Shown here: in pieces, positions 4,719-57,068 of the stretch
Position numbering within the stretch: the first letter of the stretch is position 1
Layout of the letters: each line of letters begins with the position of its first letter
DNA from: Clostridia bacterium
Lineage (GTDB): Bacteria > Bacillota > DSM-521 > Neomoorellales > Neomoorellaceae
NCBI GenBank assembly: GCA_030445865.1
Contig: JASUSV010000002.1
Coordinates: 62,001 to 126,000, forward strand
Length of the DNA stretch: 64,000 nucleotides
Reading direction: 5' to 3'
The notes under the pieces: model-generated
Seen by the model: the letters and a program-made list of their open reading frames with translations, nothing else
Told to the model about the DNA's origin: nothing
Databases searched by the model: none
Translations under genes and position numbers: made by a program

Positions 4719-4744
4719 AATTTTGATAAAAGTGAATAGGATTT

Positions 4745-4900
4745 TTCTCGAACGCTGAATCCTTTTGCGAGACAAAAGGAGCGGGGGAACCAGTTCCTGG
4801 GGTGAATCTCTTTGACTGGTATTATGCCAGTTGAAGAGTAGGGTTAACTTTCAATCCGAACCCGTCAGCTAACTTCGCAAGCGTGGAAAGAAGGCAGGAA
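4745..4900 (+). promoter_or_regulatory. Cyclic-di-AMP riboswitch (ydaO-yuaA)
   Basis: The segment carries the conserved blocks of the ydaO aptamer in order: CGCTGAATCC, GGAGCGGGGGAACCAG, GGGGTGAATCTC, a variable GACTGGT/GCCAGTT hairpin, AGGGTTAACTTTCAATCCGAA, CCCGTCAGCTAAC, and a closing GCGTGG that pairs back to the opening. Ligand binding in this family normally favours the downstream terminator, seen here at 4943-4975. Because it sits before a complete glycine-betaine transporter, the likely logic is that high c-di-AMP turns off osmolyte uptake, in line with the known role of c-di-AMP in osmotic balance. Confidence 0.93.
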
Positions 4901-39787: not shown

Positions 39788-42318
39788 TGGCGAAAACGCG
39801 TGTTTTTGAATTGGCTAAAGAACTCCGGGTTTCCAATAAAGAACTTATGGATACGATGTCGGCTTTAGGAATTTATACCCGTTCTCATATGAGCGTTTTA
39901 GAAAACGGCGAAGTGATCAAGGTTAGAAACCATTACCGCAAGCTGCGGCGGGCGGCTAAGGCTGCCAAGATGGCTGAAATGGAGCAGGCTGCCCGGGAAA
40001 TTCCGCCGGAGCAACCGGTCCAAAAGCAGGAAACCGTAGAAATCCCGGAGCAGGAACAGGAGAAGGGCAGGGCAGAAGCCCGGGTGGAAAAGCAGGTCCA
40101 AAAGGAGGAACATATCCAGGCGCAACCTCCAGAGATAAAGGAAAAGGTTCAAGAAAAAGCGGCTGAGGCCCGGGAGAAAGAGGAACTTGCAAAAGAACGT
40201 GGGGCCGAGAAACCCCAGGTAAGAGGGGAGGCTGCCCCAGCACCGGATAAAAAGGCGCCTCATAAACCCCCCCGCCGCTCCCACCAAGGCCGTCCATGGC
40301 AACAGAGGCCCGCTACTGGCGAGGAGGCTGTTAAGGAGGGAGGGGCGAAACCGAAAGGAAAGGTTTTGCACATTCCCAGGATGCCGGAAGTCGAGCGGGG
40401 CAAAGAACAACCCGAAAAGAGGCGCGAGAGAGCGCCGAAAGTTACCCATATACCCGAACGCGACCGGAGCCGCAGGCGCTTTGAGCAAGATGAGGAACGG
40501 GAAACGAAGCTTATTAGGCCTAGTAAACCCAAGCCCAAAAAGCAGGAGGTTGTCGCTGCTCCTAAGGTTGTTCCCCACGTCGTCTTAAGCGGCAGTATCA
40601 CCGTTCAGGAATTAGCCAAAAGAATTGGTAAGACGGCCGCCGAGGTAATAAAAAAGCTCATTTCTTTAGGGGTAATGGCTACTATCAATCAGGAAATCGA
40701 TGTTGAGACAGCGGCAATCGTAGCCGAAGAGCTCGGAGCCAAAGTCGAGGTTAAAGTTGAAAAGCCCATTACCGAACTCGAGGATATTGAGGATGCTCCT
40801 GAGAGCTTACGCGAGCGGCCGCCAGTAGTAACGGTAATGGGGCATGTTGACCACGGCAAAACTTCGCTGTTGGACGCCATCCGGCACACTAATGTTACGG
40901 CCACGGAAGCCGGGGGTATCACGCAGCATATTGGGGCCTATCAGGTTCAGATCGGCGGCCGGGTTATAACCTTTTTGGATACCCCAGGCCACGAGGCCTT
41001 TACGGCCATGCGTGCCCGGGGCGCCCAAGTAACCGACATTGCCGTGCTGGTCGTCGCTGCCGACGACGGTGTTATGCCCCAAACGGTAGAAGCCATAAAC
41101 CATGCCAAGGCCGCCGGCGTGCCCATTGTGGTGGCCATAAATAAAATCGATCGCCCTGATGCCAATCCGGATCGGGTAAAGCAGCAATTGACAGAATACG
41201 GTCTGGTGCCGGAAGAATGGGGCGGCGATACGGTTATGGTCCCGGTGTCAGCCCTGAAAAAGCAGGGAATCGAGCAACTGCTAGAAATGATTCTCTTGGT
41301 AGCCGATATGGCCGAGTTAAAGGCCAATCCCGACAGGCCGGCAAGAGGAGTGGTTATCGAGGCCAAGCTGGATAAGGGGCGGGGCCCCGTTGCCACTATG
41401 TTAATCCAGAAAGGTACTTTGCGGGTTGGAGATGTCTTAGTTGCCGGTACCTGTTATGGCCGCGTGCGGGCCATGGTAGATGACCAGGGCCAGAAGGTTA
41501 AAGAAGCCGGCCCTTCCAAGCCGGTAGAAGTGCTGGGGTTATCGGAAGTGCCGGAAGCCGGCGATATTTTCCAGGTATTAGATGACGAAAAAATGGCCCG
41601 GGAGATCGCCGAGCAGCGCCGCATAAATAAGCGCCAGGAAGAGATGAAGAACGCCGTCAAGACCTCTTTAGATGAGGTATTTAAGAAATTGGAAACCGGC
41701 GAAGTGAAAGAATTAAACTTGGTCATCAAGGGAGATGTTCAGGGTTCGGTAGAGGCCATGCGGCATTCCCTGCAACAGCTTTCCACGGATGAGGTAAAGG
41801 TAAATATTATTCACAGCGGTGTAGGAGCCATTACCGAAACCGATGTAATGCTGGCGGTAGCTTCCAAAGCTGTAATAATCGGTTTCAATGTCAGGCCGGA
41901 TGCCAACGGGCGTAAGGCCGCCGAAGAAGCAGGCATCGAAATTCGCCTCTACCGGGTTATTTATGAGATGATCGATGACGTGAGGGCATCTTTGAGCGGC
42001 TTACTGGAGCCCGAACAGAAAGAAGTGCAATTGGGCCGCGCTGAGGTAAGGGCTACCTTTAAAGTGCCTAAAGTGGGTACAGTTGCGGGTTGCATGGTAC
42101 TGGAAGGTAAAATGGTTAACCGGGCCCAGGTCAGGGTCGTTCGCGACGGAGTAGTAGTCTATGAAGGCCGCATAGAATCCCTTAAACGTTTTAAGGATGA
42201 TGTGCGCGAAGTGGCTCAGGGCTACGAATGTGGTATCGGCCTGGAAAAATTTAACGATATTAAAGAAGGAGATATTATAGAAGCTTATACTATCGAGGAA
42301 ATTAAACGCACGCTTTAA
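39787..42318 (+). CDS. infB: Translation initiation factor IF-2
   Basis: An 843-residue IF-2. An N-terminal IF2_N domain is followed by a highly charged Glu/Lys/Pro/Arg-rich stretch (about 60-265) that looks disordered, then a second IF2_N ([19 protein letters not shown]). The GTPase has G1 [13 protein letters not shown]3 DTPGHEAF and G4 NKIDRPDA. The C-terminal domains end [22 protein letters not shown]. It brings initiator tRNA to the ribosome. Its stop codon lies inside the left direct repeat of the mobile-looking element at 42321. Confidence 0.97.
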
Positions 42319-42320
42319 GA

Positions 42321-42566
42321 GGTTCTTCCGAAACTAATATGGAAATGCTTGGGTGCTGGCGGCAGGCGGGAGTAAAAAGGCTGAGCGCTTCGGTCGGCGA
42401 AAAATCGAGCCCGGAGGCGGGGCCGAGGGCATGGAGGCTCAAGGCCGGAACCTCGTACAGGACGCTTAAATCCGGTCGGAAACCCCGCCGGACGGCGTGA
42501 GGGGCCTTACGGCCCGTAAGCGAGCGCCACCACTCCCTCCGGCATGGGTACTGTTTCGGAAGCATC
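42321..42566 (+). mobile_element. MITE-like structured element, copy 1
   Basis: A 246-bp insert between infB and rbfA. The ends GGTTCTTCCGAAAC and GTTTCGGAAGCATC are imperfect inverted repeats (12 of 14, with 10 perfect). The 8-bp direct repeat CTTTAAGA flanks it at 42313-42320 and 42567-42574, a likely target-site duplication that contains the infB stop codon. Long blocks match copy 2 at 56687-56995, including 30 identical nt at 42365-42394. It has no transposase and no convincing gene. The short minus-strand frame across it is not plausible as a protein. Internal helices (for example GAGCC/GGCTC) suggest that a structured RNA is made. Confidence 0.75.
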
Positions 42567-42590
42567 CTTTAAGAAATGGGGGTAAAAATA

Positions 42591-52949: not shown

Positions 52950-53105
52950 CAGATGGTGGGGTAGAGGTGCAGCCCGGCATTAGTAATCCTGGGGAGCTAG
53001 GGGAAGCTGGGAACCAGGATGAAAGGGCCGGCTGCCGAAGTAAGGCGCTTCCCCTGGGCGCTTTGCTGGGCCGGGGCTGAAAAAGTTCCGGACTGTCACG
53101 GTTTT
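52950..53105 (+). promoter_or_regulatory. Lysine riboswitch (L box)
   Basis: Conserved L-box blocks occur in order: GGGTAGAGGTGC, ATTAGTA, GGGGAAGCTGGG, GGCTGCCGAAGTAAGGCGC, then CTGGGCCGGGGCTGAA and GTTCCGGACTGTCACGG. The closing CAC pairs with the opening GTG (P1). Lysine binding in this class leads to termination, here at 53161-53201. The last arm of P1 can also pair with AACCGTG further on (53093-53130 region), which would serve as the alternative fold. The operon it governs makes lysine, diaminopimelate and dipicolinate. Confidence 0.92.
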
Positions 53106-53160
53106 TATTTTAATTTGGAACCGTGGAGCGCTACCCGAGTATTCTTGTATTGTTTCAGGA

Positions 53161-55675: not shown

Positions 55676-56683
55676 ATGCGTAAGTTGCGTGTAGCGGTAG
55701 TAGGTACAGGGGCCGTAGGTCAGACCATCCTGGAAGTCCTGGCCGAGCGCGATTTCCCGGTAGGCCACCTGCGGCTCCTGGCAACCAGTCGTTCAGCAGG
55801 TAAGACGGTAGAGTTTAAGGGCAAGGCTTATACCATAGAGGAAACTACGCCGGAAGCCTTTGAGGGGGTAGATCTGGCCCTTTTTGCCGGCGGCGAGGCC
55901 AGCAAAATTTTCGCCCGTGAGGCCGTCAAGCGTGGAGCCGTAGTGATCGATAACAGCAGCACTTTCCGTATGGATCCTGATGTGCCGCTGGTTGTTCCGG
56001 AAGTTAATCCCGAGGATGTAACCTGGCACAAAGGCATTATCGCCAACCCCAATTGTTCCACTATTCAAATGGTGGTAGTTTTAAAGCCCCTCCACGATGT
56101 GGCCCGCATTAAGAGAGTGGTCGTGGCCACCTATCAGGCGGTTTCCGGCGCCGGCCTGGAAGCGATTGAAGAATTGAAGTTGCAGAGCAAGCAGGTGCTG
56201 GAAGGTGAGGCAATAAGCTCGAAAGTTTTTCCTCACCAGATCGCCTTCAACGCCCTTCCCCATATAGATGTCTTTTTAGACAACGGCTATAGCAAAGAAG
56301 AAATGAAAATGGTTAACGAAACAAAAAAAATTATGGGCGACGCCGGTATAGCCGTTACGGCTACTACTGTTAGAGTACCGGTGCTTAACTGTCATTCCGA
56401 AGCCGTCAACATCGAGACGGAGAAGAAGCTTACTGCCGCCGAAGCTCGCCGGATTTTAGAAAAGGCGCCGGGCGTGGTGGTGCAGGACGATCTGGCGCGG
56501 AACCTATACCCGTTAGCCAGCAATTGTTCGGGCCGTGACGAAGTCTTTGTGGGGCGCATCCGCGAAGACGTAACTATAGCCAACGGCCTGAATCTATGGA
56601 TAGTGGCCGATAATCTGCGCAAGGGAGCGGCTACTAACGCCGTTCAGATCGCCGAATTGTTGCTGCAAAAAGGGCTATTGTAA
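55676..56683 (+). CDS. asd: Aspartate-semialdehyde dehydrogenase
   Basis: A 335-residue Asd, second step of the aspartate family pathway. VAVVGTGAVGQTILEVL binds NADP. The catalytic Cys is in ANPNCSTIQMV, and the catalytic His in VRVPVLNCHSEAV. Its TAA stop lies inside the left direct repeat of mobile-looking element copy 2. Confidence 0.96.
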   Translation: MRKLRVAVVGTGAVGQTILEVLAERDFPVGHLRLLATSRSAGKTVEFKGKAYTIEETTPEAFEGVDLALFAGGEASKIFAREAVKRGAVVIDNSSTFRMDPDVPLVVPEVNPEDVTWHKGIIANPNCSTIQMVVVLKPLHDVARIKRVVVATYQAVSGAGLEAIEELKLQSKQVLEGEAISSKVFPHQIAFNALPHIDVFLDNGYSKEEMKMVNETKKIMGDAGIAVTATTVRVPVLNCHSEAVNIETEKKLTAAEARRILEKAPGVVVQDDLARNLYPLASNCSGRDEVFVGRIREDVTIANGLNLWIVADNLRKGAATNAVQIAELLLQKGLL

Positions 56684-56686
56684 GGT

Positions 56687-56995
56687 GGTCCTTCCGAAAC
56701 TACCCTGAAAATAACTCTTTGCCATTTTCATCCTCTGCTGGTGCCGCGTTAGCGGCATGGGGATCTAATATGAAAATGCCGGAGTGCCGGCGGCGGGCGG
56801 GAGTAAAAAGGCTGAGCGCTTCGGTTGGCGAAAAACCGGGCCCGGAGGCGGGGCCGAAGGCATGGAGGTCCAAGGCCGGAATTTCGCTTGGCTGGAAACC
56901 CCGCCTTAAGGCACGTGAGGGAGCCATATGGATCGCAAGCGAGCCCTTGAGCGCGAGCGACACCAATCCGGCGTGGGTACTGTTTCGGAAGCATC
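56687..56995 (+). mobile_element. MITE-like structured element, copy 2
   Basis: A 309-bp relative of 42321-42566, in the same orientation, between asd and lysC. Ends GGTCCTTCCGAAAC and GTTTCGGAAGCATC match copy 1. The flanks TGTAAGGT (56679-56686) and TGTAAGCC (56996-57003) share six bases, a partly decayed target duplication holding the asd stop codon. The 30-nt identical block is at 56796-56825. It has about 60 extra nt near the left end, which include a TGCCGC-GTTA-GCGGCA hairpin. A helix is kept by compensation (GGGCC/GGTCC here, GAGCC/GGCTC in copy 1). No protein is convincingly encoded. Confidence 0.75.
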
Positions 56996-57068
56996 TGTAA
57001 GCCGGAGGCAGGAAAAATATATGAAGGAGGCTCTGGTTTGATGGGTGGATAGGGGGTGATTTGTAAGC

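Follow-up and report, generated by a model that had tools for sequence, protein, structure and literature searches.

Two copies of a non-autonomous transposable element lie in the window (the whole stretch of 64,000 nucleotides analyzed here), both on the plus strand, which is the strand that folds, and both in sense with the gene on each side. The first, of 309 bp (positions 56687-56995), is found between asd and an aspartokinase gene, and the second, of 246 bp (42321-42566), between infB and rbfA. The ends GGTYCTTCCGAAAC...GTTTCGGAAGCATC are common to both, and the window element encodes no transposase. In the 56-kb element, the terminal inverted repeats on the plus strand are GGTCCTTCCGAAAC on the left (56687-56700) and GTTTCGGAAGCATC on the right (56982-56995), and the flanking target duplication consists of TGTAAGGT (56679-56686) and TGTAAGCC (56996-57003), which match at six of eight positions; around the 42-kb element, the duplication CTTTAAGA is exact (42313-42320 and 42567-42574, 8/8). 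The 56-kb copy also contains a nested insert of 65 bp (56702-56766) with Moorella-type element end sequences, which is missing from the 42-kb copy; a stand-alone relative of this insert (cf. L027) occurs in the host genome (G000:C74:7104-7168). Two riboswitches, for lysine (52954-53141) and for c-di-AMP (4743-4898), were additionally recognized in the window by Rfam matches over the cut-off.

Each element carries a structured RNA core on the plus strand, at 42398-42507 (model R1, 56.9 bits, E 9e-13) and at 56827-56925 (49.0 bits, E 1e-10); against a best R1 score of 121 bits, these are diverged copies. Stem P2 joins GGCGGGG (42416-42422; 56847-56853) to CCCCGCC (42483-42489; 56899-56905), and hairpin P3 (42423-42444; 56854-56875) exposes the loop ATGGAG (42431-42436; 56862-56867), which is closed by a C-G pair and has the CsrA-type form ANGGAN. 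In the 42-kb copy, model R1 and the sequence place the P5 loop with its closing pair, CAGGACG, at 42458-42464, while the P5 hairpin has been lost from the 56-kb copy.

The core occurs at least 59 times in the host genome (2.08 Mb in 90 contigs); copies were gathered by searches, so that all copy numbers are lower bounds. The commonest form of the element measures 253-260 bp, and another form, of 96-97 bp, is without the core. Exact 8-bp target duplications surround many copies, among them some without the core in L004 and L060, and the ends of the family are 14-bp inverted repeats. With terminal inverted repeats, target duplications, many copies, and no coding gene, the family has the anatomy of a miniature inverted-repeat transposable element. 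Intact duplications around core-less copies argue against a need for the core in movement, and its conservation therefore asks for another function. No description of the element in Moorella was found in the open-licence literature. Several contigs start or stop inside a copy, and thus the repeat breaks the assembly; contig ends inside the repeat (C4, C7, C14, C36, C40, C42, C46, C55, C62, C76, and C90 of G000) explain part of the fragmentation of the draft.

The end sequence and the 8-bp duplications had suggested ISL3 as the partner family, a candidate rejected on finding no ISL3 transposase in the genome. At C89:13504 of the host genome, the terminal repeat adjoins a zinc-ribbon reading frame, and via this protein a 1376-bp insertion sequence was reached in the relative G018 (L269:421-1796). 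Its ends, GGTCCTTCCGAATC...GTTTCGGAAGCATC, are the same 14-bp ends as those of the window elements (the left end of the 56-kb element included), and it has the zinc-ribbon frame, overlapped by a frame for a DDE transposase of the IS6/IS240 type, but lacks the core. The DDE domain matches PF13610 over the cut-off (35.1 vs. 27 bits), and the transposase scores 51.2 bits with the NCBIfam IS6 model, for which the family cut-off is 125. Insertion sequences of IS6/IS240 type have 8-bp duplications and short inverted ends, as seen here, whereas the separate, overlapping zinc-ribbon frame and the score below the IS6 cut-off distinguish the partner from them. No target duplication was found around the L269 copy. 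The autonomous partner is present in G018, and the host genome itself has a fragment only. Given an insertion sequence with the same ends, the window elements are most plausibly non-autonomous derivatives that such a transposase mobilizes. The inverted ends, which an earlier note on this DNA had taken to close the whole molecule into one domain, are the transposon termini shared with this insertion sequence. That note had also hinted at guide RNAs, and a structured RNA in a mobile element would suit the guide of a nuclease-bearing element; this is nevertheless scarcely credible, because the 14-bp inverted ends, 8-bp duplications, and IS6-like partner are not the anatomy of IS200/IS605 or IS110, no variable guide segment was seen, and guide-type Rfam families such as HEARO or IS605-orfB gave no match.

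Among 60 relatives searched, full-length copies occur only in genome G018, and what is common to other genera and families, in many copies, is the internal part of ∼110 bp alone. Genome G005 has three 262-bp copies with the ends CTGAGTTATCCCC...GGGGATACGCCAG and 9-bp duplications (9/9, 8/9, and 9/9). Different ends around a shared core indicate that the conserved unit is the core and not the transposon. Hosts retrieved with a pattern derived from P5 include Moorella stamsii, M. mulderi, M. sulfitireducens, Thermoanaerobacter wiegelii, Thermoanaerobacterium species, Desulfovirgula, and Desulfofundulus. In four species of one genus (g91, probably Thermoanaerobacterium; L189, L190, L192, and L202), a single core copy was found per genome, at the same site between the genes for an S41 protease and a glycerate kinase, with the core body inverted in L190 relative to the three others. 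Discrete variants of P3 (such as GGACAGAGAGGCCTGCGGCC) recur across genera (L038, L139, L136, L208, and others), as if the elements had exchanged hairpin modules.

The fold is a rod broken by tandem G-A pairs, leading to a three-way junction with hairpin P3 and a stem P4 that bears hairpin P5. In a BLAST-derived alignment of 43 sequences, which was not fitted to the structure although the structure was read off it, 87.5% of cells are paired (77.5% when shuffled), and 22 pairs have double-sided changes in 127 cells, compared with 44 cells for shuffled and 14-45 for slid partners. The earlier note had proposed a covariance model of homologues, and such an alignment of 33 diverse copies from many families, which is fitted to the structure and so leans towards it, gives 92.8% pairing and double-sided changes in 32 of 35 pairs (220 cells; 60 when shuffled and 22-35 when slid). 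Tandem G-A pairs (GA/GA) are found at three sites, in 30 (outer site), 22, and ∼29 of the 33 copies. A coding explanation of the changes is unlikely, because the compensatory changes follow base pairs and core lengths differ by 1-4 nt among copies.

The mobility signature and the covariation relative to shuffles thus lend strong support to the earlier claim of a mobile element with a conserved RNA fold and compensatory change, and conserved pairing, with double-sided changes far above chance, stands; the particular helix named for it does not, since the pairing belongs to another structure. The letters and coordinates of that 5-bp helix are correct (GAGCC 42407-42411 with GGCTC 42436-42440; GGGCC 56838-56842 with GGTCC 56867-56871), but it is broken in most copies and was rejected: the second pair is A-C in 33 of 43 family sequences, and the fourth is A-G or G-G in 28 of 43. 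Its 3′ half (GGCTC/GGTCC) is part of the local hairpin P3 and its 5′ half part of the rod, and the predicted fold of the 42-kb copy contains P3 and not this helix. The identical 30-mer, which had been suggested as a constrained loop, is present at 42365-42394 and 56796-56825; it is no conserved loop, being located outside the conserved core and different in sequence in the other copies compared.

Relative to shuffles, fold stability is moderately unusual at most (z of -2.22 for the 56-kb copy and -0.85 for the 42-kb copy), and with such modest energies in both window copies the case rests on the family and not on these two. An ordinary fold-back repeat without host function, in which the pairing would be mere inverted repeats, could account for a 42-kb copy that is not unusually stable, and transposon ends are inverted by nature; many independent compensatory changes across families, along with fixed loops and G-A sites, need long selection and make this explanation very improbable.

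The plus strand is the more stable one in 32 of 33 copies with RNA parameters and, by a smaller difference, in 31 of 33 with DNA parameters, a polarity that is consistent with a transcript. Alternatively, the fold could matter as DNA, in single-stranded or hairpin form during transposition or replication, and it would then be the transposase, not CsrA, that contacts the loops. In favor of this, transposons with different ends contain the core, and tandem G-A pairs are stable in DNA too. A DNA-level role has likewise been left open by the authors describing another repeat motif (PMC11109978). We nonetheless regard such a role as quite improbable, given exact 8-bp duplications around the core-less 96-97 bp copies in L004 and L060, a partner insertion sequence that does without the core, loops with the motif of an RNA-binding protein (ANGGAN), and a biased orientation to genes.

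Both hairpin loops read C-A-N-G-G-A-N-G in nearly all of the 33 diverse copies, and only the N positions are free: column entropies in this alignment are 0-0.4 bits for the fixed loop positions and 1.4-1.7 bits for N, compared with a stem mean of 0.90. Some P3 loops are one nucleotide shorter, and GGA is missing from some. Matches selected by a model favor conserved loops, yet the stems are rewritten in the same matches. The two loop sites are ∼28 nt apart. The recognition element of CsrA/RsmA is ANGGAN in a loop (PMC3791407), and SELEX yielded RUACARGGAUGU in hairpin loops (PMC7652899). AAGGAU, the commonest P5 loop in the 43-sequence alignment, is equal to the loop of RsmZ-2 (PMC3791407). 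The core thus shares ANGGAN loops with the sponge RNAs CsrB/CsrC and RsmX/Y/Z; these have many sites, while the core has two per copy, repeated and mobile, and occurs in Firmicutes.

The window copies gave no meaningful Rfam match, even at E 10. Several family members do match RF01731 (TwoAYGGAY RNA), most of them over the full length (best 39.2 bits in L189, others 26.7-35.6), with no copy tested reaching the Rfam gathering cut-off of 43 bits. The P5-derived pattern retrieved Lachnospiraceae loci that, at 78-111 bits, count as accepted TwoAYGGAY RNAs. In the other direction, R1 matches 12 of 20 loci picked with RF01731 alone (E <= 0.0012). TwoAYGGAY RNA has two hairpins with AYGGAY-type (ANGGAN-type) loops in the same layout at a junction, tandem G-A pairs in a stem, and an outer stem (PMC2864571; PMC4333381), all of which are present here. 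The core differs from it in scoring below the cut-off, in its G-A-rich rod and GC-rich composition, and in lying between transposon ends in dozens of copies. Their hosts are also mostly different: of the 398 genomes sampled from the phylum, 70 have R1 matches, 26 have RF01731 matches, and 6 have both. We conclude that the core belongs to the same structural class as TwoAYGGAY RNA, short of the formal threshold, and the two are probably of common descent; in this sample of one phylum, the R1 model makes the range known for the class about three times as wide. CsrA binding by TwoAYGGAY RNA was already proposed in 2014 by Gardner and Eldai. The CsrA idea was reached here from the loops, independently of that proposal (PMC4333381), and the two agree. 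What appears to be new is that transposons carry the RNA and that its range is wider, roughly threefold.

The host genome has flgL, fliW, and csrA in a row, and in its CsrA, as judged by residue count, L4 and R44 are retained, which we take to be key residues for RNA binding. Among the 398 genomes, csrA is found in 65 of 70 R1 carriers and in 219 of 328 others (Fisher p = 2e-6); by genus, the figures are 49 of 52 and 146 of 215 (p = 4e-5), and 25 of 26 RF01731 carriers have csrA. Because this co-occurrence follows lineage, for which the statistics do not correct, and flagellar genes, with FliW (275 of 398) distributed in almost the same way, it is supportive only. Relative to two collinear neighbors, 36 copies are sense and 12 antisense (p = 7e-4, with genes called as longest ORFs), and copies often lie a few bases downstream of a stop codon; the bias can be read in two ways, namely that the folded strand is transcribed by read-through or that antisense copies are selected against. 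A conserved RNA function without CsrA, for example the protection or insulation of mRNA between cistrons or an interaction with a different protein, would be compatible with the sense bias, with sites just after stop codons, and with the R1 carriers that have no csrA match (G021, G155, G250, G323, and G364, some of them drafts; G022 has a weak match only). It is an unlikely alternative, as it leaves unexplained why the ANGGAN letters are fixed in two loops while the stems and N positions vary.

The explanation that we favor, with a moderate degree of confidence as a whole, is that of a transposon-borne, TwoAYGGAY-class RNA that is produced by read-through and whose two loops are contacted by CsrA. 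The miniature element would be mobilized as DNA in trans by an IS6/IS240-like transposase, and transcription of the upstream gene would run on into its plus strand. The resulting rod with tandem G-A pairs would present two ANGGAN hairpin loops, both of which a CsrA dimer most likely binds. Each copy may then give the mRNA that contains it a CsrA site, and jointly the copies may titrate CsrA. More tentatively, and with rather less assurance, we propose that transposons of Clostridia spread CsrA-binding RNA modules, one of them taken up by unrelated ends, and that in FliW-bearing Firmicutes they would amount to a CsrA sponge of many mobile copies or to a portable site of CsrA regulation. If CsrA does bind the core RNAs, a mobile element would be coupled to global post-transcriptional regulation, and the sponge, if true, would operate in a group without an established Csr-type sRNA, such sRNAs having been identified only in Gammaproteobacteria, as stated in PMC4333381. 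The finding also touches the stated open point of whether FliW and sRNAs jointly act on CsrA in any species (PMC7652899), and it makes the 2014 prediction of TwoAYGGAY as a clostridial CsrA-binding RNA (PMC4333381) testable in culturable Moorella, Thermoanaerobacter, and Thermoanaerobacterium.

Other bacterial repeats bear a partial resemblance to the element, and for one of them, bcr1, we know of no CsrA-type double loops. Like the element here, bcr1 is an intergenic repeat with characteristics of a mobile element and a predicted common fold, but it is reported to be specific to the Bacillus cereus group (PMC2267715). The MRSC-65-2 repeat motif, thought to be a selfish element (PMC11109978), similarly has a multi-copy covarying structure; it was rejected as the same thing, as it forms a single long stem with UYCCGG repeats and not a branched core with two fixed loops. 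On a Gammaproteobacteria MAG contig (L240:2659-2749), the same architecture was seen with a quite different P3 stem, in a weak match (28.1 bits with R1 and 34 with RF01731) that is sub-threshold for both models. Finally, TwoAYGGAY RNAs of Lachnospiraceae (L219, L229, L211, and L216) cap very long imperfect stems and, on that ground, may likewise be fold-back mobile elements.
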